Origin: Bacillota bacterium
GTDB taxonomy: Bacteria > Bacillota > Clostridia > Christensenellales > CAG-138
Assembly: GCA_016282255.1 (NCBI GenBank)
Contig: JAEEKE010000112.1
Location: 1 to 34,361 of the forward strand
Length of the DNA stretch: 34,361 nucleotides
Direction: 5' to 3'
The translations under genes were made by a program, and so were the position numbers. This document shows, in pieces, positions 3,241-34,357 of this stretch (position 1 is the first letter of the stretch; each line of letters begins with the position of its first letter). The notes under the pieces were generated by a model. The model was not told the origin of the DNA. It made no database searches and saw only the letters and a program-made list of their open reading frames with translations.

Positions 3241-4308
3241 ATGGAGAACAGGATCGACAAGCTCCTTAAAAAGCTTGCCGGAAAGAATATCGACGCGGCG
3301 ATCATCACCTCTCAGGTCAACCGCAGGTATTTTTCGGGCTTCACCGGCTCCAACGGCGTCGTGATCGTTTCCGCCGCCGGCAGGGTGCTGCTGACCGACT
3401 TCCGCTACACCATCCAGGCCGGGCAGCAGTGCGCCGGTATCTGCGAGGTGCGCCAGGTCAGCCGCAGCATCACCCCGCAGGAAGTCGAGAGCGTGCTCAA
3501 TGAGTTCGGCGCGAAGGTCGTGGCTTTTGAGGACGCTGCGATGACCGTCGCCGAATACAACGGCTACGCCGGGCTCCCGTTCGAGTTCGTGCCCTCCTCC
3601 GCCGATATCTGCGGCTGCAGGATCGTCAAGGACGCGTACGAGATCAGCATGATGCAGAAGGCGCAGGACTGCGCCGACGCGGGCTTTAAAGAGCTTATCA
3701 AGCACGCCAAGGTCGGCATGACCGAGATCGAGCTGCGCAACGAGCTGGATTACTTCATGCGCAGGTTCGGCGCGGACGAGAACTCGTTCGACACCATCGT
3801 CGGCTCCGGCCCCAACGGCGCGCTCTGCCACGCCTACCCCGGCCCGAGGAAGATCCAGCCGGGCGACATGGTCGTTATCGACTTCGGCTCGCGCGTGAAC
3901 GGCTACTGTTCCGACATGACGAGGACCGTCGCCTTCGGCGAACCCGCCCCCGAAATGAGGAAGATCTACGATATCGTGCTGGCCGCACAGCTCAGGACCC
4001 TCGGCATACTGCGCCCGAACATGGTCGCGTCCGAGCTTGATCTCTGCGCGCGCGATTTCATCACCGAGCACGGCTACGGCGAATGCTTCGGGCATTCCCT
4101 CGGCCACGGCTTCGGCCTGGAGGTCCACGAGAACCCCTACGCCAACTCCCGTTCGACCGAGCTGCTCGTTCCCGGCTCCACCATCACCGTTGAACCCGGC
4201 ATCTACGTTGAGGGTCTCGGCGGCGTCCGCATCGAGGACTGCTGCGTCCTGACCGAGGACGGCTTCATCAACATGTGCCATACCACCAAGGATCTCATCA
4301 TCCTGTAA
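3241..4308 (+). CDS. pepP: Xaa-Pro aminopeptidase (M24B family)
   Basis: Cytoplasmic metallopeptidase of 355 residues that would release N-terminal residues preceding proline, or split Xaa-Pro dipeptides. Residues ~1-120 form the creatinase-type N-terminal domain ([11 protein letters not shown]). The pita-bread catalytic domain follows with all five expected metal ligands: the aspartates of VIDFGS and SDMTRTV, the histidine of [10 protein letters not shown], and the glutamates of VEPGIYV and RIED. The ORF track runs further upstream, but AAGGAAGGA before the ATG at 3241 and the normal family N-terminus decide the start. It is followed after 34 bases by efp, the usual Firmicutes pairing. Aminopeptidase P versus prolidase cannot be told apart by eye. 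Confidence 0.93.
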
Positions 4309-4342: not shown

Positions 4343-4900
4343 ATGATTTTAGCAGGCGATTTCAGAAAGGGCATCACCGTCGAGATCGACGGACAGGTCT
4401 GGAGCATTGCCGATTTCCAGCACGTCAAGCCCGGCAAGGGCGCGGCTTTCGTTCGCACCAGGCTCAAGAACGTCATGACCGGCGCCGTCCTTGAAAGGAC
4501 CTTCTCCCCCACCGACAAGTACCCCACTGCGCATATCGAGACCCGTGAAATGCAGTATCTCTACAACGACGGAGATCTTTACTACTTCATGGATAACGAG
4601 ACCTATGAGCAGCTGGCGCTCAACCACGACCAGGTCGAGGACGCTATCGACTTCATCGTCGAGAACGCGAACGTGACCATCCGCTTCTTCAAAGGCGCGG
4701 CGTTCTCCGTTGCGGCTCCCAACTTCGTTGAGCTGACCGTTACCGAGACCGAGCCCGGCTTCGCAGGCGACACCGCGACCGGCGCAAGCAAGCCCGCGAC
4801 CGTTGAGACCGGCTACACCCTCAACGTTCCCCTCTTCATCAACGAGGGCGACCGCATCCGCATCGATACCCGCACCGGCGAATACATGGCCCGCTGCTGA
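4343..4900 (+). CDS. efp: Translation elongation factor P
   Basis: Binds between the P and E sites of stalled ribosomes and rescues polyproline synthesis. At 185 residues it is the normal three-domain length. The domain I loop reads KPGKGAA with lysine at position 32, the site modified in several Firmicutes; no dedicated modification gene is seen nearby. The C-terminal OB domain ends with the typical [20 protein letters not shown] strong GGAGG precedes the ATG by seven bases. It lies between pepP and the CD1247-type gene. In many Clostridia this group leads straight into spoIIIAA, which does not happen here. Confidence 0.98.
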
Positions 4901-4921: not shown

Positions 4922-5362
4922 ATGATCAAGGAAAAAGCCGAATACATCCGCGGCCTTGCCGACGGGATGAACATTGCCGCCGAGAACGGCAATAACGAGA
5001 AGCTCTTCCGCGCCATCATCGACTGCCTCTGTGCCATGGCGGAGGTCGTTGACGACAATGCCGAAGCGATCGACGCTATCGACGAGGATCTCAACGATAT
5101 CTACGAGGCAATGGACGTCTACGACGAGATCCTTTTCGAGGATGAGGACGACGAGGAAGAGGACGAAGATTTCGAGTGCGACTGCGACGACTGCGAGCGT
5201 GAGTGCGACGACTGCGACTGCGGCTGCGGCTGCGAGGAAGCCGATCCCCACGTGGTCTGCGCCAACTGCGGCGAGGAGATCCCGCTCGACGAGCTTCTGA
5301 ACTGCCCCAGGTGCCATAAGCCCGTGTTCGACGATGACGACGTCGTCGAGATCAAGGACTGA
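4922..5362 (+). CDS. CD1247-type acidic zinc-ribbon protein
   Basis: 146 residues. The N-terminal ~60 residues form a helical domain (IRGLADGMNIAAENGNNEKL) matching the CD1247 N-terminal domain that commonly follows efp in Clostridia. A very acidic stretch comes next (FEDEDDEEEDEDFE), then a Cys/Asp-rich run with about ten cysteines. The C-terminus is a classic zinc ribbon, CANCGEEI ... CPRCHKPVF. The function is not established; genomic position links it to efp and sporulation loci. AGGAG precedes the ATG by seven bases. The protein is more acidic and cysteine-rich in the middle than I would expect. A terminator follows. Confidence 0.85.
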   Translation: MIKEKAEYIRGLADGMNIAAENGNNEKLFRAIIDCLCAMAEVVDDNAEAIDAIDEDLNDIYEAMDVYDEILFEDEDDEEEDEDFECDCDDCERECDDCDCGCGCEEADPHVVCANCGEEIPLDELLNCPRCHKPVFDDDDVVEIKD

Positions 5363-5408
5363 CAGCGGCGGGGAAACTTCCCCGGCCCGCATCAAAACCC
5401 GAAGAATG

Positions 5409-5442
5409 CAGCAGGGTCCTCAATCGGCGGCCCTGCTGTTTT
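5409..5442 (+). terminator. Intrinsic terminator ending the pepP-efp group
   Basis: CAGCAGGG pairs perfectly with CCCTGCTG across 14 bases and runs into TTTT. A second short hairpin (GGGGAAACTTCCCC) lies just upstream. This separates the group from trmK at the place where spoIIIAA would be expected. Confidence 0.8.
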
Positions 5443-5452
5443 AGGAACGGAA

Positions 5453-6193
5453 TTGGAAAGAAGCGCTGCTGACAATCGCACGAGGCGCAGACGCAGGCTG
5501 AGGCCGCGGCTTGAAAAAGCCCTTGAGATGACCCCGGGCTGCGCCGTGCTTGCGGACGTCGGCTGCGACCACGGGCAATTCTCGCTCGCGGCGCTCGAAA
5601 GCGGCCGGGCGAAGCGCGTCATCGCCTCCGATATAAGCGAGGCGTCGCTGCAAAAGGCCATGAGGCTTTTCTGCGGCGCAGGCTATGATATCGAGTTCCG
5701 CTGCTGCGCCGGGCTCTCGGGCTGTTCTGAGGGCGAGGCGGATTGCTGCGCGCTGCTCGGTATGGGCGGCGAGCTGATCGCGTCGATCCTCGAAAGCGAT
5801 ATCATAAAGGCAAGGGCGTTCCGCCTTATCGTCATGCAGCCGATGCGCGGCGAGGCGGAGCTCCGTCACTGGCTCCGTGAAAACGGATTTGCCATAGCCA
5901 ACGAAGCGGTCGTCAGGGACGACGGGCGGTATTACCAGCTGATCTCAGCCCGGTATGCGCCGGACGAGGTCCTGCCGCTGCCCGAATGGTGGCCCGAGGG
6001 TTTCTTCCAGTTCGGCGTGACAGCGCTCGAAAAGCACGAGAGCGCGATGCTGCCCATGATGGAGCGCTATCTCTCCATGATGGAGAAGAAGCTGAATAAA
6101 GCCGCCGAGAAAGGCGCCGTGCCGCCGCTGCTTCAAAGCGAGAGGGACGGCACGCTGGCGCTCATAAGGCGCTATAAGGAAACGATCTCTTAA
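5453..6193 (+). CDS. trmK: tRNA (adenine(22)-N1)-methyltransferase
   Basis: SAM-dependent enzyme that methylates A22 in the D-arm of some tRNAs. The Rossmann SAM site reads ADVGCDHGQF (residues ~35), followed by the acidic strand IASDISEASLQKA. The family-typical LLGMGGELIASIL and LIVMQPMRGEAELRHWL follow. The C-terminal part is a helical bundle rich in methionine and lysine. 246 residues matches the family. The start is a TTG with AGGAACGG just before it, ten bases after a terminator, so the exact start is uncertain. The order trmK-nif3-zinc ribbon protein is a standard Firmicutes arrangement. Confidence 0.92.
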   Translation: MERSAADNRTRRRRRLRPRLEKALEMTPGCAVLADVGCDHGQFSLAALESGRAKRVIASDISEASLQKAMRLFCGAGYDIEFRCCAGLSGCSEGEADCCALLGMGGELIASILESDIIKARAFRLIVMQPMRGEAELRHWLRENGFAIANEAVVRDDGRYYQLISARYAPDEVLPLPEWWPEGFFQFGVTALEKHESAMLPMMERYLSMMEKKLNKAAEKGAVPPLLQSERDGTLALIRRYKETIS

Positions 6194-24017: not shown

Positions 24018-25235
24018 TTACCGATTATCGTTTGTTTCCTTGGTTTCGACGACTACGCCCAGCCTGCCGCCGCGCATGCGCACGGTCAGCCTTGAGCCGA
24101 CCTCCGCGGCCGAGGCGTCGATCACCGGCCTTCCCGCCCCATCGCTGACGATCGCATAGCCGCGGTCGAGTACGGCGTAGGGGTCGAGCGCGGCGAGCTT
24201 TTCGGAGAGCTTTTCAAGCGCCGCCCTGCGTTTTTCCAGTGCGTTTTTTACGGCATAGCCGAGCGCGTCGGTCACGCGGTCGAGCTTCATGCGTTTCTCG
24301 GCGATCAGGGCCGCGGGCTTAGAAAGCGCGGCGCTCGAATCGAGCATATCGATGCGCTTCCTTTCGGCGCCGAGGCGCGCGGCTACGGCCTGATCGAGCC
24401 CCGCGCGCAGGCCGAGGATGCGGTCCTCAAGCTGAGCCTTTACGGGAACGGCCATGACCGCGGCGAGCGTGGGCGTGCCGGCGCGGTGATCCGCCGCGAA
24501 ATCGGCGAGCGTGTAGTCGAGCTCGTGCCCGACGGCGCTGACGACCGGGATAAGGCTATTATGTATAGCCCTTGCGACGCGCTCGTCGTTATAGCAGGAG
24601 AGCTCCTCGCTGCTGCCGCCGCCGCGGCCAACGATGATGACGTCGGTAACGGCTATGCGGTTGAGGTATTCTATCGCGCCGGCGATCGAGGCGGGCGCGT
24701 TCGGGCCCTGCACGGCCGAGGGCACGAAGACGGCGCGCATGCCCGGGAAGCGGGTCCGCATCGTGGAGAGGATGTCCTCAAGTGCCTTGCCCTCGCCGGA
24801 AGTGACTACGCCGATGCATCTCGGCAGGGACGGCAGCGGACGGCAGTTTTCGAAAACGCCCTCCGCTTCGAGCTTCTTTTTGAGCTCGAGGAGCTCGGCA
24901 TACTGCTCGCCCTCGCCCTCCTGCTTCAATGAATTGACGATGAGCTGGAATCGGCCGTCGCGCACGAAGAGCGAAACGTCGCCCGTGGCGGTGACCTTCA
25001 TGCCGTCCTCCGGCTCGAAGCGCAGGCGGGCGCGGACGCTCTGATACATGACGCAGCTTACCACGGCCGCGGCATCCTTGAGCGAAAAATAGGTCATGCC
25101 CATGCGGCCGTAGGTCTTGACGCCGGTCAGCTCGCCCGAAACGTGCACGCGGCGGAGCCTTGCGTCGCCCTCGAGGACGGCCTTTGCGTAGTTATTCAGC
25201 TGTTCGACGGTCCAGGCCCGTTCAGTCTGCGCCAT
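24018..25235 (-). CDS. xseA: Exonuclease VII large subunit
   Basis: 405 residues. N-terminal OB fold (residues ~5-100, VEQLNNYAKAVLEGDARLRRVHVSGELTGVK ... YFSLKDAAAVVSCVMY), then the catalytic domain with PRCIGVVTSGEGKALEDIL, IIVGRGGGSSEELSCYNDERVARAI and PVVSAVGHELDYTLADFAADHRAGTPTLAA. A coiled-coil region follows, then a C-terminal YAVLDRGYAIVSD segment. All expected motifs are present. Its start overlaps the end of folD by 14 bases, indicating translational coupling. Confidence 0.97.
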   Translation of the reverse strand: MAQTERAWTVEQLNNYAKAVLEGDARLRRVHVSGELTGVKTYGRMGMTYFSLKDAAAVVSCVMYQSVRARLRFEPEDGMKVTATGDVSLFVRDGRFQLIVNSLKQEGEGEQYAELLELKKKLEAEGVFENCRPLPSLPRCIGVVTSGEGKALEDILSTMRTRFPGMRAVFVPSAVQGPNAPASIAGAIEYLNRIAVTDVIIVGRGGGSSEELSCYNDERVARAIHNSLIPVVSAVGHELDYTLADFAADHRAGTPTLAAVMAVPVKAQLEDRILGLRAGLDQAVAARLGAERKRIDMLDSSAALSKPAALIAEKRMKLDRVTDALGYAVKNALEKRRAALEKLSEKLAALDPYAVLDRGYAIVSDGAGRPVIDASAAEVGSRLTVRMRGGRLGVVVETKETNDNR

Positions 25236-29228: not shown

Positions 29229-29816
29229 CTAAGCCGCGCCGCGGGAGAGCGAGATCCTGACCGCCTGGGCCGAGACGCCCGTTTCGCTGCGGATGATATC
29301 GAGTATCCTCGCGACCTCCTCGTCGGAGAGCGTCTCGCCGTCGATGACCACGGTCACGGAATCGTTCCTGAACGTCACCGCCGCGTCGCGGAAGCCCTTT
29401 GAGCGGAGCTTGCTCTCGATCGAGAATTCCTGCTCCATATTCGAAACGAGCTGCATGAGCCTCTCCTGCGCGCTGCGCAGGGTCTCCGCGTCGGTGCTCT
29501 CGTCCTCGACGATCATGCGCAAAAAGTCGATCTCCTGCGCGCGGATGCTGCTGCGTTCCTCGCGGAAGCCCGCGAAATAACCCTCGTAGACGCCCGCGCC
29601 GACGCTTGCGGCGTCCTCGGTGCCGTCCGTACCGTCGATGGCGTCGCTGTTTTGGTCGGTATTCTGCGCGTCCGCGGGTCTTCCCGCCATGGCGTCCGTT
29701 TCGCCGCCGTCCTCCTTGAGCCGGATGTTGAGCCATACAGCGCCCGCGAGCAGCAAAAGCAGCAGCACGGCCGCTATGACGCCCTTCTTTGTGAACCTTG
29801 AAGAGTTGTTCCTCAT
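29229..29816 (-). CDS. spoIIIAH: Stage III sporulation protein AH
   Basis: Mother-cell half of the AH-Q channel that joins the mother cell and forespore. 195 residues: an N-terminal basic segment and one membrane helix (residues ~12-30, GVIAAVLLLLLLAGAVWLNI), a low-complexity Asp/Asn/Thr linker, then a ring-building (YscJ/FliF-like) domain with FREERSSIRAQEIDFLRMI ... QERLMQLVSNMEQEFSIESKLRSKGFRDAAVTFRNDSVTVVI. AAAGGAG before the ATG at 29816 decides the start; the ORF-track extension is rejected. A 136-base gap with a GACCCC/GGGGTC hairpin beside the ribosome site separates it from spoIIIAG. Confidence 0.93.
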   Translation of the reverse strand: MRNNSSRFTKKGVIAAVLLLLLLAGAVWLNIRLKEDGGETDAMAGRPADAQNTDQNSDAIDGTDGTEDAASVGAGVYEGYFAGFREERSSIRAQEIDFLRMIVEDESTDAETLRSAQERLMQLVSNMEQEFSIESKLRSKGFRDAAVTFRNDSVTVVIDGETLSDEEVARILDIIRSETGVSAQAVRISLSRGAA

Positions 29817-29952
29817 TTTTAGCTCCTTTGACCCCCTGTATCGGGGTCTTCCTTTCCACACCGATTTTCGGCGGCAAGCCGCCCTTATCAGAACCGCTCC
29901 CACGCACCTATGCCGGTCGGGAGCATATCCCTTTGAAAGCATATTCCCTGCC

Positions 29953-30507
29953 CTATGCCGCCATGACAAACACCTCCACGCTTTTTTCGTCGACGCCGAG
30001 CACGGTGCCGACCGCCGCGATGATGTTGAGCCGGACGGCGATATTGCCCGCGCCCTCCGCGAGCACCACCACGCCGCGCACGCGCGGCAGATGCTCGGTC
30101 AGCACGATGGGGCTCTGTTTGCCGCCCTCGCTGACCGTTGCGGGGCGGGATTCCTCGCTGCCCGAGCCCGAGCGCCCCTCGAGCGCGAGCACCTGCTCGC
30201 CCGTCTGCTCGAAGGTCAGCATGACCCTGACCCTGCCCACGCCCGCCATATCCGAGAGCAGCGCTTCGAGCCGCTTTTCAAGCTTTTCGGCCTCGTCCTC
30301 GGCGGTGAACGTTTGGGTGCTTTCGGCCTCAGCAGGCTTGCTCTCACGCTTTTTGCCGCCGAACGCGCCCGAGGAGAGAAAAAGGATCAGCGCGAGCGCC
30401 GCCATCGCGGCATAGATCAGCAGCCCCGCTTTTTTATTGCGCCGCATGCAGCCGGCAAGGCGGCCTATCGGATCCGGTTTTTTGCTTTGTTCCGCCATGG
30501 GTTTCAT
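29953..30507 (-). CDS. spoIIIAG: Stage III sporulation protein AG
   Basis: Ring-forming component of the feeding-tube channel. 184 residues: cytoplasmic tail, one membrane helix (~28-46, LLIYAAMAALALILFLSS), then a ring-building domain with EAEKLEKRLEALLSDMAGVGRVRVMLTFEQTGEQVLAL and VRGVVVLAEGAGNIAVRLNIIAAVGTVLGVDEKSVEVFVM. It is somewhat shorter than the Bacillus protein (229). Its ATG overlaps the stop of the tiny upstream spoIIIAF-like gene (ATGA), so it is translationally coupled to it. Confidence 0.92.
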   Translation of the reverse strand: MKPMAEQSKKPDPIGRLAGCMRRNKKAGLLIYAAMAALALILFLSSGAFGGKKRESKPAEAESTQTFTAEDEAEKLEKRLEALLSDMAGVGRVRVMLTFEQTGEQVLALEGRSGSGSEESRPATVSEGGKQSPIVLTEHLPRVRGVVVLAEGAGNIAVRLNIIAAVGTVLGVDEKSVEVFVMAA

Positions 30508-30665
30508 TCCGGCATGCCGCCCAGCACCGCCGCGGCGAGGGCGAGCCTGACCGCCCGCTTTGCCGCCGAAGAAACGCCGCCGTCGGGCAGAAGCGCCTCG
30601 GCAGCGGCCCCGATAAGCGCCGCCGCGATCATGCGCAGAAGGAGTTTTTTAAAGAATAGCATCAT
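30504..30665 (-). CDS. spoIIIAF: Miniature SpoIIIAF-like protein (53 residues)
   Basis: Too short for the ORF track. The ATG at 30665 has AGGA eight bases upstream, and the stop overlaps the spoIIIAG ATG. The 53 residues (MMLFFKKLLLRMIAAALIGA ... ALLPDGGVSSAAKRAVRLAL ... GGMPE) match only the N-terminal membrane part of SpoIIIAF, including the (D/E)xLLP motif between the two helices. The usual soluble domain of more than 100 residues is absent. Gene order (AE, this gene, AG) supports the identity. Whether it is functional is open; intact coupling to AG could be a reason to keep the short frame. Confidence 0.75.
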   Translation of the reverse strand: MMLFFKKLLLRMIAAALIGAAAEALLPDGGVSSAAKRAVRLALAAAVLGGMPE

Positions 30666-30680: not shown

Positions 30681-31874
30681 TTACCCGAATACGGCGCTGC
30701 CGCAGCAGATGATCATAACGACGGTGACCGTGAACATGGCCGCCGCCGAGGCCGCCGCCCCGAGCAGGAGCGAGACCGTGTCCGCAAGCTCGTCGAGCAG
30801 CTTGGGGATGCGGTCGTCACTAAGCGGCTCCGCTGCCGCCGCGGCGATCCGAAGTGCGAGCATCCCGCCCGCTAGGGAGATCACCGGACGGATCGCGAGC
30901 GCCGCAAGCAGCAGGATCGCGGCCGTGCCCGCCGCGTTCTTGACGAGCAGGGAGCCCGCGCTCACGACGTCGGCCGCGCCGCTTATGAGGCCGCCCGCAG
31001 AGGGTATCAGCCGGTCGACTGCGAACCTTGCCGCCCGGATGGAAACGCCGTCCGCCGCGCCCGCACGGACGCCGCCCGTCACCGCCGCGGCCGTATAAAC
31101 CGCCGCCGCGAACGCAAGCAGCCATTTGGCGGTCTTTTGAAGGAGCCTGACGGTGCGGTCGAAGCGCATGCCGCCGAGCGCGTTCATGACGGTGAGCACG
31201 CCCGAGGCGAGCAGCATCGGCAATACGGCGCCGCTTAGAAGCAGCACGACGCCCTCCGCGATAAAAGCGAGCTTCGGCGCGAGGAAGGCCGCGCTGCCGG
31301 TGCAGCCGAGGACGGTCAAAAGCGCGCCGAGGATCGGTGAGGAGAGCTCCGAAAAGGCCGCGATATCGCGTATCACGGCGGAGGCCGTGCCCGCGAGCTC
31401 CGCAAAGAGCGCCGCGGCCGGAAGTACGGCCGTCGAGGCGAGGGCGAGCAGCACCGTTTTCTTCGCGCCGCCGTCCTCGAGCAAAACACCCGAGACGCCC
31501 GCGAGCATCGCGGCAAGGATCACGCCGAGCATACGCCGCAGCGCGGAGCGCAGGCCCGGCAGTAAGAGCTCGGGAACGACCGAATCGAGGCCGGGCGCGT
31601 CCTCCCCGCCCGCGAGGGCCGCGACGAAGGCGTTTATGCTGCGGTAATTGCCGGCCGACTGCGATAGAGCGCAAAGCGCTTCAAAATAGCTCTGCCAGGC
31701 CGAAAGATCCGTCTCGCCCGAAAGGCGCAGGATCTCCCCCGCGATCGCCTGCCGCGTTTCGTTTTCGGCATCCCCTTCCTCCTCCGCAAAGGCGGGCGCG
31801 GGAAGAAGCAGAAGCGCAAGCAGCAGGGCCGCGAGGCCTGTTGAAAGAAGGCGGGATGCGAGCCGTTTTTTCAT
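30681..31874 (-). CDS. spoIIIAE: Stage III sporulation protein AE
   Basis: Polytopic membrane protein of the mother-cell channel complex. 397 residues, full length: cleavable signal peptide (MKKRLASRLLSTGLAALLLA ... AFAEEE), an extracytoplasmic segment, then six or more helices with family stretches FSELSSPILGALLTVLGCTGSAAFLAPKLAF, MNALGGMRFDRTVRLLQKTAKWLLAF and FAVDRLIPSAGGLISGAADVV. It looks intact. It starts 15 bases after the spoIIIAD stop. Confidence 0.94.
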   Translation of the reverse strand: MKKRLASRLLSTGLAALLLALLLLPAPAFAEEEGDAENETRQAIAGEILRLSGETDLSAWQSYFEALCALSQSAGNYRSINAFVAALAGGEDAPGLDSVVPELLLPGLRSALRRMLGVILAAMLAGVSGVLLEDGGAKKTVLLALASTAVLPAAALFAELAGTASAVIRDIAAFSELSSPILGALLTVLGCTGSAAFLAPKLAFIAEGVVLLLSGAVLPMLLASGVLTVMNALGGMRFDRTVRLLQKTAKWLLAFAAAVYTAAAVTGGVRAGAADGVSIRAARFAVDRLIPSAGGLISGAADVVSAGSLLVKNAAGTAAILLLAALAIRPVISLAGGMLALRIAAAAAEPLSDDRIPKLLDELADTVSLLLGAAASAAAMFTVTVVMIICCGSAVFG

Positions 31875-31889: not shown

Positions 31890-32285
31890 TTAGAGGAGCT
31901 CGTTGACGAGCGCCGTCATGGCTTCGGCGATGGAACGCAGCAGGGGCAGCACGGTCACGACGATCAGCACCCTGCCGGTCAGGTCGCAGATATCGGCGAG
32001 GGAGCTCTCCTCAAGATCCCGGCAGAGCGAGGAAGCGAGGCGCGAAAGATACGCTATGCCGACGGCCTTCATAGCCGTGAGCAGCTCCCCGCCGCCGAGA
32101 CCGCCTTCGGAGGCGACGGTGCCGAGGTCCCCGAGGACGCCCGAGAACGCGGCGAGCACCGAGAGCATGACGATCGCGCCGGCGGCTATCGTGAGCATGC
32201 GCCCCGCCTCCCTTTCGAAGCGGCGCACGGTGAAGCCCACCACCGCGGCCGCCGCGGCAAAGCCGAGCGCGGAATACAGGTCCAT
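31890..32285 (-). CDS. spoIIIAD: Stage III sporulation protein AD
   Basis: 131 residues, the normal length, with about four helices and the family-typical GELLTAMKAVGIAYLSRLASSLCRDLEESSLADICDLTGRVLIVVTVLPLLRSI. SpoIIIAD is distantly related to small type III/flagellar export membrane proteins. Its ATG comes two bases after the spoIIIAC stop, so it is normally translated with it. Confidence 0.94.
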   Translation of the reverse strand: MDLYSALGFAAAAAVVGFTVRRFEREAGRMLTIAAGAIVMLSVLAAFSGVLGDLGTVASEGGLGGGELLTAMKAVGIAYLSRLASSLCRDLEESSLADICDLTGRVLIVVTVLPLLRSIAEAMTALVNELL

Positions 32286-32287
32286 GT

Positions 32288-32484
32288 TCAGTAGAGCTGG
32301 AAGACGCTCTTAACGCTGCTGAACAGCGTCGCTATCAGGCTGATCACCATGGATATCACGACGACGAGCCCCGCGAGCGAGGTCAGCATGGCGATATCGT
32401 CCCGTCCCGCCTGCTTGAGCAGCTGGCAGGCGACCGCGATCAGTATCCCGATGCCGGCGATACGGAAGATGATCTCTACCCCAT
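32288..32484 (-). pseudogene. spoIIIAC: spoIIIAC with an apparent one-base frameshift at codon 2-3
   Basis: The frame encodes VEIIFRIAGIGILIAVACQLLKQAGRDDIAMLTSLAGLVVVISMVISLIATLFSSVKSVFQLY, a full SpoIIIAC of about 65 residues. AAAGGAG and an ATG are correctly placed at 32484, but the sequence is ATGGGGTAG, a stop after two codons. One more G would give ATG GGG GTA GAG, matching the family start (MGVD/E). No ATG, GTG or TTG lies in the correct frame near the ribosome site. Either the G-run has lost a base in nature, or it is an assembly or read error, or a rare start is used. That is why the ORF track misses it. Confidence 0.8.
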
Positions 32485-32495
32485 TCGTTCTCCTT

Positions 32496-32717
32496 TCAGA
32501 GCGTCAGAAGCGCGAGCGCCGCCCCGAGGATGGCGCAGATAGGGACGGCGAGCTCGGCCCGCGCACTGAGCTTTGCCTCGGTTTGTGCCCCGGGCACGCC
32601 CCGGTCGTCGTTTGAAGCGCGCAGCGCGGCGAGGCTTTGCTTTGCCTCCTCGGCGATCAGCGCGCCGGCCGCGGTCGAAATGAGCAGGAGACCCGCGGCG
32701 GTCATAAGGCGCGTCAC
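32496..32717 (-). CDS. spoIIIAB: Shortened SpoIIIAB-like protein (73 residues)
   Basis: The N-terminus (MTRLMTAAGLLLISTAAGALIAEEAKQSLAAL) matches the membrane helix and following pattern of SpoIIIAB, and the C-terminus (AELAVPICAILGAALALLTL) matches its final helix. The ~100-residue cytoplasmic helical domain between them, which resembles the GspF domain of type II secretion systems, is replaced by ~25 residues. The usual length is ~170. The start is GTG with GGGGGAG five bases upstream. It lies 11 bases before spoIIIAC, the expected order, and is the first gene of the operon because no spoIIIAA precedes it. The identity rests on position plus end similarity. Confidence 0.65.
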   Translation of the reverse strand: MTRLMTAAGLLLISTAAGALIAEEAKQSLAALRASNDDRGVPGAQTEAKLSARAELAVPICAILGAALALLTL

Positions 32718-32812
32718 GGTATCTCCCCCTCGGCCGATAAAAGCCCGGTTTTCAAAGCTGCGGTTTTCATTTCAAGAAAGGATATGAGGCGGGAAAGGCT
32801 TCAAGCACCGCG

Positions 32813-32837
32813 AAAAAAAGCGGCTTTCGGCAGCCGC
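32813..32837 (-). terminator. Intrinsic terminator upstream of the spoIIIA genes
   Basis: On the minus strand GCGGCT-GCCGAA-AGCCGC followed by seven Ts. It ends the transcript of the unknown membrane gene and so isolates the spoIIIA genes, which must have their own promoter in the ~95 bases before spoIIIAB. I could not pick out a convincing sigma-E promoter there. Confidence 0.9.
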
Positions 32838-32863
32838 GGGGATATCGTGAAGGCTTATGACGC

Positions 32864-33421
32864 TCAGGCTTTGGGGAGAGGGGTCCGCAGGGCGAAGAAG
32901 AGGGCCGAGAAAGCCATGCCGGTGAGCTGAAGATCGAGCGTTTCGCCCACGGCCGAGTAGGCGCCGTAGCCGCTTGATGCGAGATCGGCGAGGAAGAGCA
33001 GGAGCGCGAGGAAAAGAGGCGCGAGCGCGGCGGCGAGCAGGCGCAGGGACAGGGGCTTTATAAACGGCGCGGCAAGGAGCGGCAGCAGCGCCGAGAGGAT
33101 GATAAAGGCTTCGCCCGAGAGCCGCCTGCCTAATAGGAACGCGGGCAGCGCGATAAGGAGCGCCGCGGGGAGCGCCAGTAGAGTTCGCCGGCCCTCCTGC
33201 CGGAGAGCTGGGATCAGCAGCAGCGCCGGTATAAGCGCACACGCCGGGCAGAGCTCGAATTCGGGCGAGAACTCGAGCACGGCGGGCCGCATGGCCGCCG
33301 CCGCAACGGCGAATATGACCGCCGCCGCTCTGCCTATGCGAAGCTGAAAAAGCGCTGCGTCGAGCGTGCCCGCCGCCGCGGCGACGGTGAGCATCAGGGC
33401 CGCCATAGTTGAAAACCGCAT
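32864..33421 (-). CDS. Polytopic membrane protein of unknown function
   Basis: 185 residues, extremely hydrophobic and rich in Ala/Leu, with about six membrane helices and one CPAC motif in a loop (FELCPACALIPALL). I recognise no family; composition alone gives a membrane protein. It occupies the place upstream of the spoIIIA genes where spoIIIAA would be, but it has no P-loop and is separated by a strong terminator. ACGGAG lies seven bases before the ATG, inside the stem of a terminator hairpin, so translation may depend on readthrough and unfolding. Confidence 0.7.
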   Translation of the reverse strand: MRFSTMAALMLTVAAAAGTLDAALFQLRIGRAAAVIFAVAAAAMRPAVLEFSPEFELCPACALIPALLLIPALRQEGRRTLLALPAALLIALPAFLLGRRLSGEAFIILSALLPLLAAPFIKPLSLRLLAAALAPLFLALLLFLADLASSGYGAYSAVGETLDLQLTGMAFSALFFALRTPLPKA

Positions 33422-33508: not shown

Positions 33509-34357
33509 TCAGCCGTCGGTCAGCCTGAGGAAGCCGATCATCGCGCCGGTCTCGGTCCTGTCCCTGCGGTAGGAGAAGAACAGGTCCTTCCTTTCATAGG
33601 TGCAGAGGCCCATGGAGCTGATGTTTTCGGGCAGTACGCCCGCGTCGAGCAGCTGGATGAGGAGCGCGGCCTCGATATCGGTATAGGCCTTGCCGGGCTT
33701 TCCGGGCTTTGAGATGCCGGGGTAATCGAACTCCCGGGCGAAATCCGCGCCGATGCTCTCGTCCACCTCGAAGCAGTTTTTGCAGATACAGGGACCGATG
33801 GCAGCGAACAGTGCTTCGGGCCGGCTCCCGAACTCCTGCGCCATCCGCTCCGCCATGCGCTGACCGACGCGCTTGAAGGTGCCCTTCCAGCCCGCGTGAG
33901 CAAGGCCGATCGCCCTGTGCTCCGGGTCGTAGAGGTAGACGCAGCTGCAGTCCGCATGCAGGGTCACGAGCGTCACGAAGGGGTCGTTCGTGATGATGCC
34001 GTCGCAGAACGGGAGGTTTTCGCGCGTGAGCCCTCTGCCGCAGTCGGAGGCGTCCACGCGCACGACGTTCGCGCCGTGCTCATGATTGACGAGCACGAAC
34101 GAGGAATGCTCCAACCCGAAGGCGGAGGCGAAAACGCGGTAGTTGCGCTGCACGTTGGCGGGATCGACGTCGCGCGTCCTCGACATGTTCAGCGAGTCGA
34201 ACGGCGCGGGGCTGACACCGCCGATGCGCGTTGAAAAGCCATGCCGGATGCCCGGTATGGCGGCGAATCCATCCGCGTTCACGAGGTACAGCCCCTCGCT
34301 TTCAAGCAGCGAATAGCCGCGGCGGATGGTTTTATCAAGCTGTTCGAAGCCCTGCAT
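33509..34357 (-). CDS. pgeF: Laccase-domain purine nucleoside phosphorylase / polyphenol oxidase (YfiH/PgeF family)
   Basis: 282 residues. Family landmarks are IPGIRHGFSTRIGGVS, LVNHEHGANV, DGIITNDPFVTLVTLHADCSCVYLYDPEHRAIGLAHAGWKGTFKRVG and AIGPCICKNCFEVDE, together with the metal ligands His, Cys and His (H of HEHG, C of ADCSC, H of AHAGW). Members release bases from purine nucleosides and deaminate adenosine; the laccase name is historical. The only ATG seen lies four bases from the window edge, so its ribosome site cannot be checked and the true start might be further out. Confidence 0.9.
   Translation of the reverse strand: MQGFEQLDKTIRRGYSLLESEGLYLVNADGFAAIPGIRHGFSTRIGGVSPAPFDSLNMSRTRDVDPANVQRNYRVFASAFGLEHSSFVLVNHEHGANVVRVDASDCGRGLTRENLPFCDGIITNDPFVTLVTLHADCSCVYLYDPEHRAIGLAHAGWKGTFKRVGQRMAERMAQEFGSRPEALFAAIGPCICKNCFEVDESIGADFAREFDYPGISKPGKPGKAYTDIEAALLIQLLDAGVLPENISSMGLCTYERKDLFFSYRRDRTETGAMIGFLRLTDG

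Follow-up and report, generated by a model that had tools for sequence, protein, structure and literature searches.

Probable in-place loss of spoIIIAA and of the soluble domain of SpoIIIAB from the spoIIIA operon of an uncultured relative of Christensenella

The spoIIIA operon described here has no gene for the SpoIIIAA ATPase. The DNA analysed (34,361 nucleotides, called the window below) is one whole contig (C136) of the 2.16-Mb assembly G000, a MAG in 139 contigs with a completeness of 91.4% and a contamination of 5.2%, and the source organism is an uncultured relative of Christensenella. The spoIIIA genes of the window lie on the minus strand, from 32717 down to 29229. Comparison with related genomes makes it highly probable that spoIIIAA was lost in place and in this lineage only. 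Our preferred reading, which we hold at a probability of about 0.5, is that this in-place loss has left a functional SpoIIIA channel without an ATPase, a state reached independently in Clostridia.

The gene order of the window is that of its congeners minus spoIIIAA, namely pgeF-orf185-(nothing)-spoIIIAB'-AC-AD-AE-AF-AG-AH. Each of the ten remaining congeneric species carries spoIIIAA, in the order pgeF-(orf185)-AA-AB-AC-AD-AE-AF-AG-AH-asp23-amaP-nusB-tsaD-like-(folD)-xseA. The site of the missing gene (32718..32863, minus strand) is 146 bp long, as compared with about 1,070 bp between the orf185 stop and the spoIIIAB start in the sister genome G006. Its upstream neighbours were identified by locus comparison. 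They are orf185 (32864..33421, minus strand), a membrane protein of 185 aa with no Pfam match that stands directly 5' of spoIIIAA in the congeners, and pgeF/yfiH (33509..34357, minus strand), the conserved neighbour upstream of spoIIIAA in 10/10 congeners. It is worth adding that orf185, although fast-evolving, is found in this position across congeners, with pgeF on one side and spoIIIAA on the other, and it is possibly sporulation-linked.

The original prediction had noted that spoIIIAA was at neither of two expected junctions and had suspected loss of the gene. The gene is indeed at neither junction, and its loss is supported by a profile search of the whole assembly, which found no true SpoIIIAA match in G000. 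The SpoIIIAA model (TIGR02858) gave a single P-loop cross-hit of 23 bits, in a 633-aa frame on contig C112; relatives give hits of the same kind, and the frame reads as Rho and was rejected as the ATPase. No secretion-type ATPase replaces SpoIIIAA at the spoIIIA locus. The reading frame before spoIIIAB' ends in a GTGA overlap like that of the congeners, but as a candidate remnant of the SpoIIIAA C-terminus it scored -0.1 bits, against up to 8.2 bits for shuffled sequences, and was discarded.

Within the family, spoIIIAA is present in 82 of 103 genomes. Among the genomes listed, 19 besides G000 are negative for it, and 17 of these 19 also have no spoIIIAE. The remaining two, G091 and G042, have spoIIIAE on a short contig; considered as further ATPase-free cases, they were set aside, G091 because part of spoIIIAA sits at its contig end, and G042 because its contig ends inside spoIIIAE and spoIIIAA would lie beyond. 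At the level of the order, the sample comprised 121 genomes at least 92% complete, with G000 counted in as the centre; spoIIIAE was found in 100 genomes and spoIIIAA in 98 of these, the exceptions being G000 and G143, the latter rejected as its contig also ends inside spoIIIAE. Where loci are contiguous, spoIIIAA is immediately 5' of AB-AC-AD-AE in nearly all genomes of the order. The loss falls on the terminal branch leading to G000, whose sister is G006 (support 78). As a separate observation, the genus g10 (G019, G108-G114) and G015 have neither SpoIIIAA nor SpoIIIAE, which suggests complete loss of sporulation there.

The other end of the window holds the genes that accompany spoIIIAA in some other lineages. 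These are pepP, an M24 peptidase (3241..4308, plus strand; Pfam PF00557/PF01321, with the same neighbours in congeners), efp, encoding elongation factor P (4343..4900, plus strand; TIGR00038, 254 bits), and a gene for a CD1247-type protein (4922..5362, plus strand; NF045650, 41.7 bits with a cut-off of 30). They are followed by a terminator, a G+C-rich hairpin with a T-run read by eye at about 5408-5442, and by a trmK-like methyltransferase gene (5453..6193, plus strand) recognised from its open reading frame, sequence and synteny. This order had been described correctly in the original prediction, coordinates and family matches being in agreement, as had the start of spoIIIAB (32717), 27.4 kb from the efp-side half of the presumed old junction, and its 5' neighbours, a terminator-like hairpin and the 185-aa membrane ORF.

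The same prediction went on to explain the loss by a rearrangement breakpoint that parted efp from spoIIIAB and removed the gene between them. The window does hold both halves of the old junction, but this explanation deserves hardly any credence. In G006 as in G010, a stretch of about 28 kb separates efp-CD1247-trmK from spoIIIA and holds nearly the genes of the corresponding stretch of the window, in the same order, yet spoIIIAA is intact between orf185 and spoIIIAB. In addition, trmK and not spoIIIAA is found 3' of the CD1247 gene in the window and in the congeners G001, G003, G006, G009 and G010 (tblastn, loci L052-L056). As to the proposed ancestral order pepP-efp-CD1247-spoIIIAA, efp and spoIIIAA adjoin in six other families of the order (G025, G026, G029, G031, G038 and G040). 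In this family, efp is beside spoIIIAA in 0/20 members with both genes placed, where separation in fragmented genomes means different contigs, while the loci of the genus show the neighbours directly. A lineage without the canonical order had been allowed for as telling against the breakpoint, and the synteny comparison found this genus to be one. The split between efp and spoIIIAA is thus family-wide and older than the loss of spoIIIAA, and, with the gene retained in two congeners of the same layout (G006 and G010), the old break did not remove it. The gene would have gone later, through a deletion at its own site on the pgeF side.

The gene next to the gap is itself much reduced. The original prediction had overlooked that the spoIIIAB reading frame is only 73 aa long, that of spoIIIAF 53 aa, and that spoIIIAC is without an in-frame ATG, GTG or TTG start. 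SpoIIIAB measures 163-165 aa in eight congeners measured and 126 aa in G001; in the window, spoIIIAB' (32496..32717, minus strand) consists of the N- and C-terminal membrane segments joined in frame, as judged by alignment, profile and fold match. (The 126-aa reading frame of G001, locus L010, against about 164 aa, may reflect a frameshift or C-terminal truncation.) No Pfam or NCBIfam model matched the 73-aa product, which scores 22-23 bits against the congener profile. Its N-terminal end scores 16.1 bits, compared with at most 7.1 for 1,899 shuffles and at most 5.9 for 470 control membrane segments, and its C-terminal end scores 11.3 bits, compared with at most 9.3 in 1,973 shuffles, likewise outscoring the 470 control segments.

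Alignment shows that about 90-100 residues have gone in frame, corresponding to the soluble domain. The AlphaFold model of SpoIIIAB from G009 (pLDDT 88) has two long helices bearing four short ones, and in a fold search it matched the solved SpoIIIAB structure, PDB 6bs9, with probability 1.00 and a TM score of 0.78. Sequence comparison with the PDB returned TPR matches only, which are spurious. On the alignment and this model, a second deletion would have taken the soluble domain and spared both membrane ends. Thus the full-length SpoIIIAB with a soluble helical domain that belongs to a SpoIIIA operon is not encoded in the window. In type II secretion the comparable pair is GspE/GspF, SpoIIIAA resembling the ATPase and SpoIIIAB the platform protein. 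By this analogy, the part of SpoIIIAB that was lost is the part that should face the ATPase, so that an ATPase and the soluble portion of the matching platform protein are both missing from the window. The similarity of SpoIIIAA and SpoIIIAB to type II secretion proteins has been stated before (PMC2703783).

SpoIIIAF is likewise a hairpin. In the window, spoIIIAF' (30504..30665, minus strand), identified by locus comparison, encodes a membrane hairpin of 53 aa. The protein is short in most of the family too, 52-72 aa as against 134-173 aa in two other families, although these figures are an estimate from ORF lengths only. Since SpoIIIAF is short in most of the family, its trimming preceded the losses of SpoIIIAA and of the SpoIIIAB domain. 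Such SpoIIIAF hairpins also occur in family genomes that keep SpoIIIAA, and are so short that the usual family models do not fit them.

All of the remaining channel genes, AC, AD, AE, AG and AH, are present and in operon order on the minus strand. They are the body of spoIIIAC (32288..32485; TIGR02848, 84.7 bits), spoIIIAD (31890..32285; TIGR02849, 56.6 bits), spoIIIAE (30681..31874; PF09546, 150.6 bits), spoIIIAG (29953..30507; TIGR02830, 78.3 bits) and spoIIIAH (29229..29969; PF12685, 117.5 bits), the true start of the last being probably within the ORF at MRNNSSRF... Elsewhere in G000 we find SigE, SigK, SigG, SpoIIGA and SpoVAC, a SigF-like factor adjoining SpoIIAB, SpoIVA (602 bits) and two SASPs; SpoIVB and SpoVT are encoded within the window.

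The retained genes AC-AH have no stop codon over 3,228 coding bases. Under neutral drift, and with indels left aside, 0.05 substitutions per site would leave them free of stops with a chance of 4%; neutrality thus sets a ceiling of about this value on the change that followed the loss, as against a terminal branch for G000 of 0.37 amino-acid substitutions per site. The identity of AD, AE, AG and AH between G000 and G006 is at the level seen between G006 and G009 or G010. Private changes at conserved sites in G000 number 9 in spoIIIA and 10 in controls. The spoIIIA count of G000 is above that of its nearest relatives (1:5, 0:5 and 2:3), which speaks against a working channel, but not above that of G008 (10:10) or G001 (9:6). 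AD-AH appear, by sequence comparison, to evolve normally, with no clear acceleration. In a different gene of the window, xseA (24018-25235, minus strand), G000 has a private change at 19 sites that all congeners conserve, compared with 0-6 in the others; its identity is lower than expected, which could indicate relaxed selection.

We propose that an otherwise ordinary spoIIIA operon lost spoIIIAA, its 5' gene, by deletion in place, only on the branch to this species, and that a second, in-frame deletion, separate from the first, removed the soluble domain of SpoIIIAB; the soluble domain of SpoIIIAF would have been lost earlier, in the family. Full-length AC, AD, AE, AG and AH, with two-helix stubs of AB and AF, would most likely still make up the SpoIIIA-SpoIIQ channel on its mother-cell side. 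We infer that the operon is expressed and that the channel works without the ATPase; passage would be passive or independent of ATP, which must also hold in those spore-forming Planococcaceae that have no AA, AB and AF. The role of SpoIIIAA, and the need of the spore 'feeding tube' for ATP, are still debated. Against the proposal, sporulation of B. subtilis requires SpoIIIAA, including its ATPase motifs (PMC2703783), and in C. difficile the spoIIIA operon and nucleotide binding by SpoIIIAA are required, with ATP binding mattering more than hydrolysis (PMC4605598). The window resembles the operon of these organisms (AA-AH with SpoIIQ) in the family matches of AC, AD, AE, AG and AH, in gene order and in the sigma-F/E/G/K cascade, and differs in having no SpoIIIAA, membrane hairpins for AB and AF, and no recognisable sigma-E promoter.

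A closer parallel is the reduced spoIIIA set of Sporosarcina and related Planococcaceae, which form spores though AA, AB and AF were not found, the profile being AC-AD-AE-AG-AH-SpoIIQ (PMC7924749). Galperin et al. had doubted a Lysinibacillus genome, the same genes being absent (PMC3533761). As in Sporosarcina, Lysinibacillus and Solibacillus (PMC7924749, PMC3533761), AA, AB and AF are missing or gutted in the window, and AC, AD, AE, AG and AH are kept. In contrast to the Planococcaceae, the window is from Clostridia, its AB and AF persist as short in-frame hairpins, and the state is confined to one species of a genus; moreover, the Planococcaceae set belongs to spore-formers, whereas the organism of the window is known here from genes alone. 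A literature search found no clostridial case of an ATPase-free SpoIIIA, which is not proof of absence. The close pair of G006, with the ATPase, and G000, with neither ATPase nor soluble part of AB, is evolutionary evidence for SpoIIIAA and the head of SpoIIIAB as a single removable module, and for AC-AD-AE-AG-AH as the core of the channel. It also indicates a possible route of reduction, the head of AF going first and SpoIIIAA with the head of AB after it, in parallel to an independent loss in Bacilli.

The most serious competitor to a working channel is recent inactivation, in which an asporogenous or decaying lineage lost spoIIIAA and its promoter, as well as the core of SpoIIIAB, by loss-of-function deletions too recent for AD-AH to have gathered lesions yet. 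The ATPase-free state is known from one genome, a MAG, so that a recent asporogenous strain is conceivable, and the whole system has gone in related genera and species (G015 and the g10 genomes, with no AA and no AE). The promoter and the ATPase have gone together. In six of nine congeners there is a sigma-E-like promoter 5' of spoIIIAA, for example TGATATT-N14-CATATCAT, matched by 3% of shuffles or fewer; in the 146-bp gap of the window no sigma-E-type promoter stands above shuffles (64% are as good), and the gap holds a lone -10-like box, CATATCCT, at about 32786, for which no sigma-E -35 can be recognised, and a terminator-like hairpin 5' of spoIIIAB' (32837-32820). The unrecognisable promoter is the strongest point for inactivation, and the deletion of the SpoIIIAB core also speaks for it. 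Against this, SpoIIIAB' is in frame with both ends preserved, the 3.2 kb of retained genes are free of lesions and show no clear acceleration, every late sporulation marker tested is present, and spore-formers are known with the same residual gene set (PMC7924749). We regard recent inactivation as a minority possibility, at somewhat under one chance in three.

It is improbable that an intact spoIIIAA has merely moved to an unassembled or unbinned part of the genome. The assembly is 91% complete in 139 contigs, but spoIIIAA keeps its place 5' of AB-AC-AD-AE nearly throughout the order, its site here is contig-internal, and SpoIIIAB, its presumed partner, has also been stripped of the soluble domain. 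The source being a MAG with 5% contamination speaks for an assembly artefact, in which reads of spoIIIAA and mid-spoIIIAB were dropped or strain variants merged. Such an artefact is nevertheless very unlikely, given that there are two deletions, separate, the second of them in frame, with clean read-through of the flanks and neighbouring genes intact.

The start of spoIIIAC is unusual across the genus. In the window its SD-preceded ATG (32484) reads ATG GGG TAG (32476-32484, minus strand), one base out of frame, with the SpoIIIAC body in the -1 frame as AAT GGG GTA GAG and no in-frame ATG, GTG or TTG upstream of that body. The candidate slip site with its SD is AGGAG-N5-ATGGGGTAG. Such out-of-frame starts, xATGGGGTAG or xATGGGATAG (x being any base), are found in the window and in L010, L011, L014, L015, L016 and L017, so that a conserved slippery site whose predicted product matches the family N-terminus is present in 7/11 species of the genus; the start is normal in the other four, and elsewhere in the order each locus examined has an in-frame ATG or GTG. 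Six congeners with spoIIIAA have the same site, and the frameshift was therefore rejected as a lesion of G000. The motif xATGGG(G/A)TAG occurs once per 14-34 kb locus, at the spoIIIAC start only. Among six lineages the T, G and A of the slip site do not change, whereas 23 of the 28 further codons of spoIIIAC that are invariant and degenerate differ in the third base. In these genomes GTA is used for only 10-18% of valines. No common hairpin was seen downstream of the slip site.

These features suggest a conserved -1 frameshift at codon 2 of spoIIIAC (AUG GGR UAG), in which glycyl-tRNA would slip back by one base, as far as the G of ATG, while UAG occupies the A site, giving MG[V/I][E/D], the normal N-terminus of the family. 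In the window, translation of spoIIIAC from any standard start codon would depend on this putative frameshift; some congeners may have an in-frame start further upstream. Programmed frameshifting helped by an SD and a stop codon is known in bacteria, as in prfB and dnaX. Compared with that type (reviewed in PMC5009743), the spoIIIAC site is alike in its slippery G-run, the UAG in the A site and the SD upstream, and unlike in lying at codon 2 and in a spoIIIA gene; our literature search found no paper tying spoIIIAC to programmed frameshifting. If confirmed, the position of the site would be an unusual one for frameshifting. The fuller picture, of sporulation with an ATPase-free SpoIIIA in which AB and AF are membrane hairpins, and of most species of the genus depending for their SpoIIIAC on an obligatory -1 ribosomal frameshift at codon 2, is put forward tentatively.
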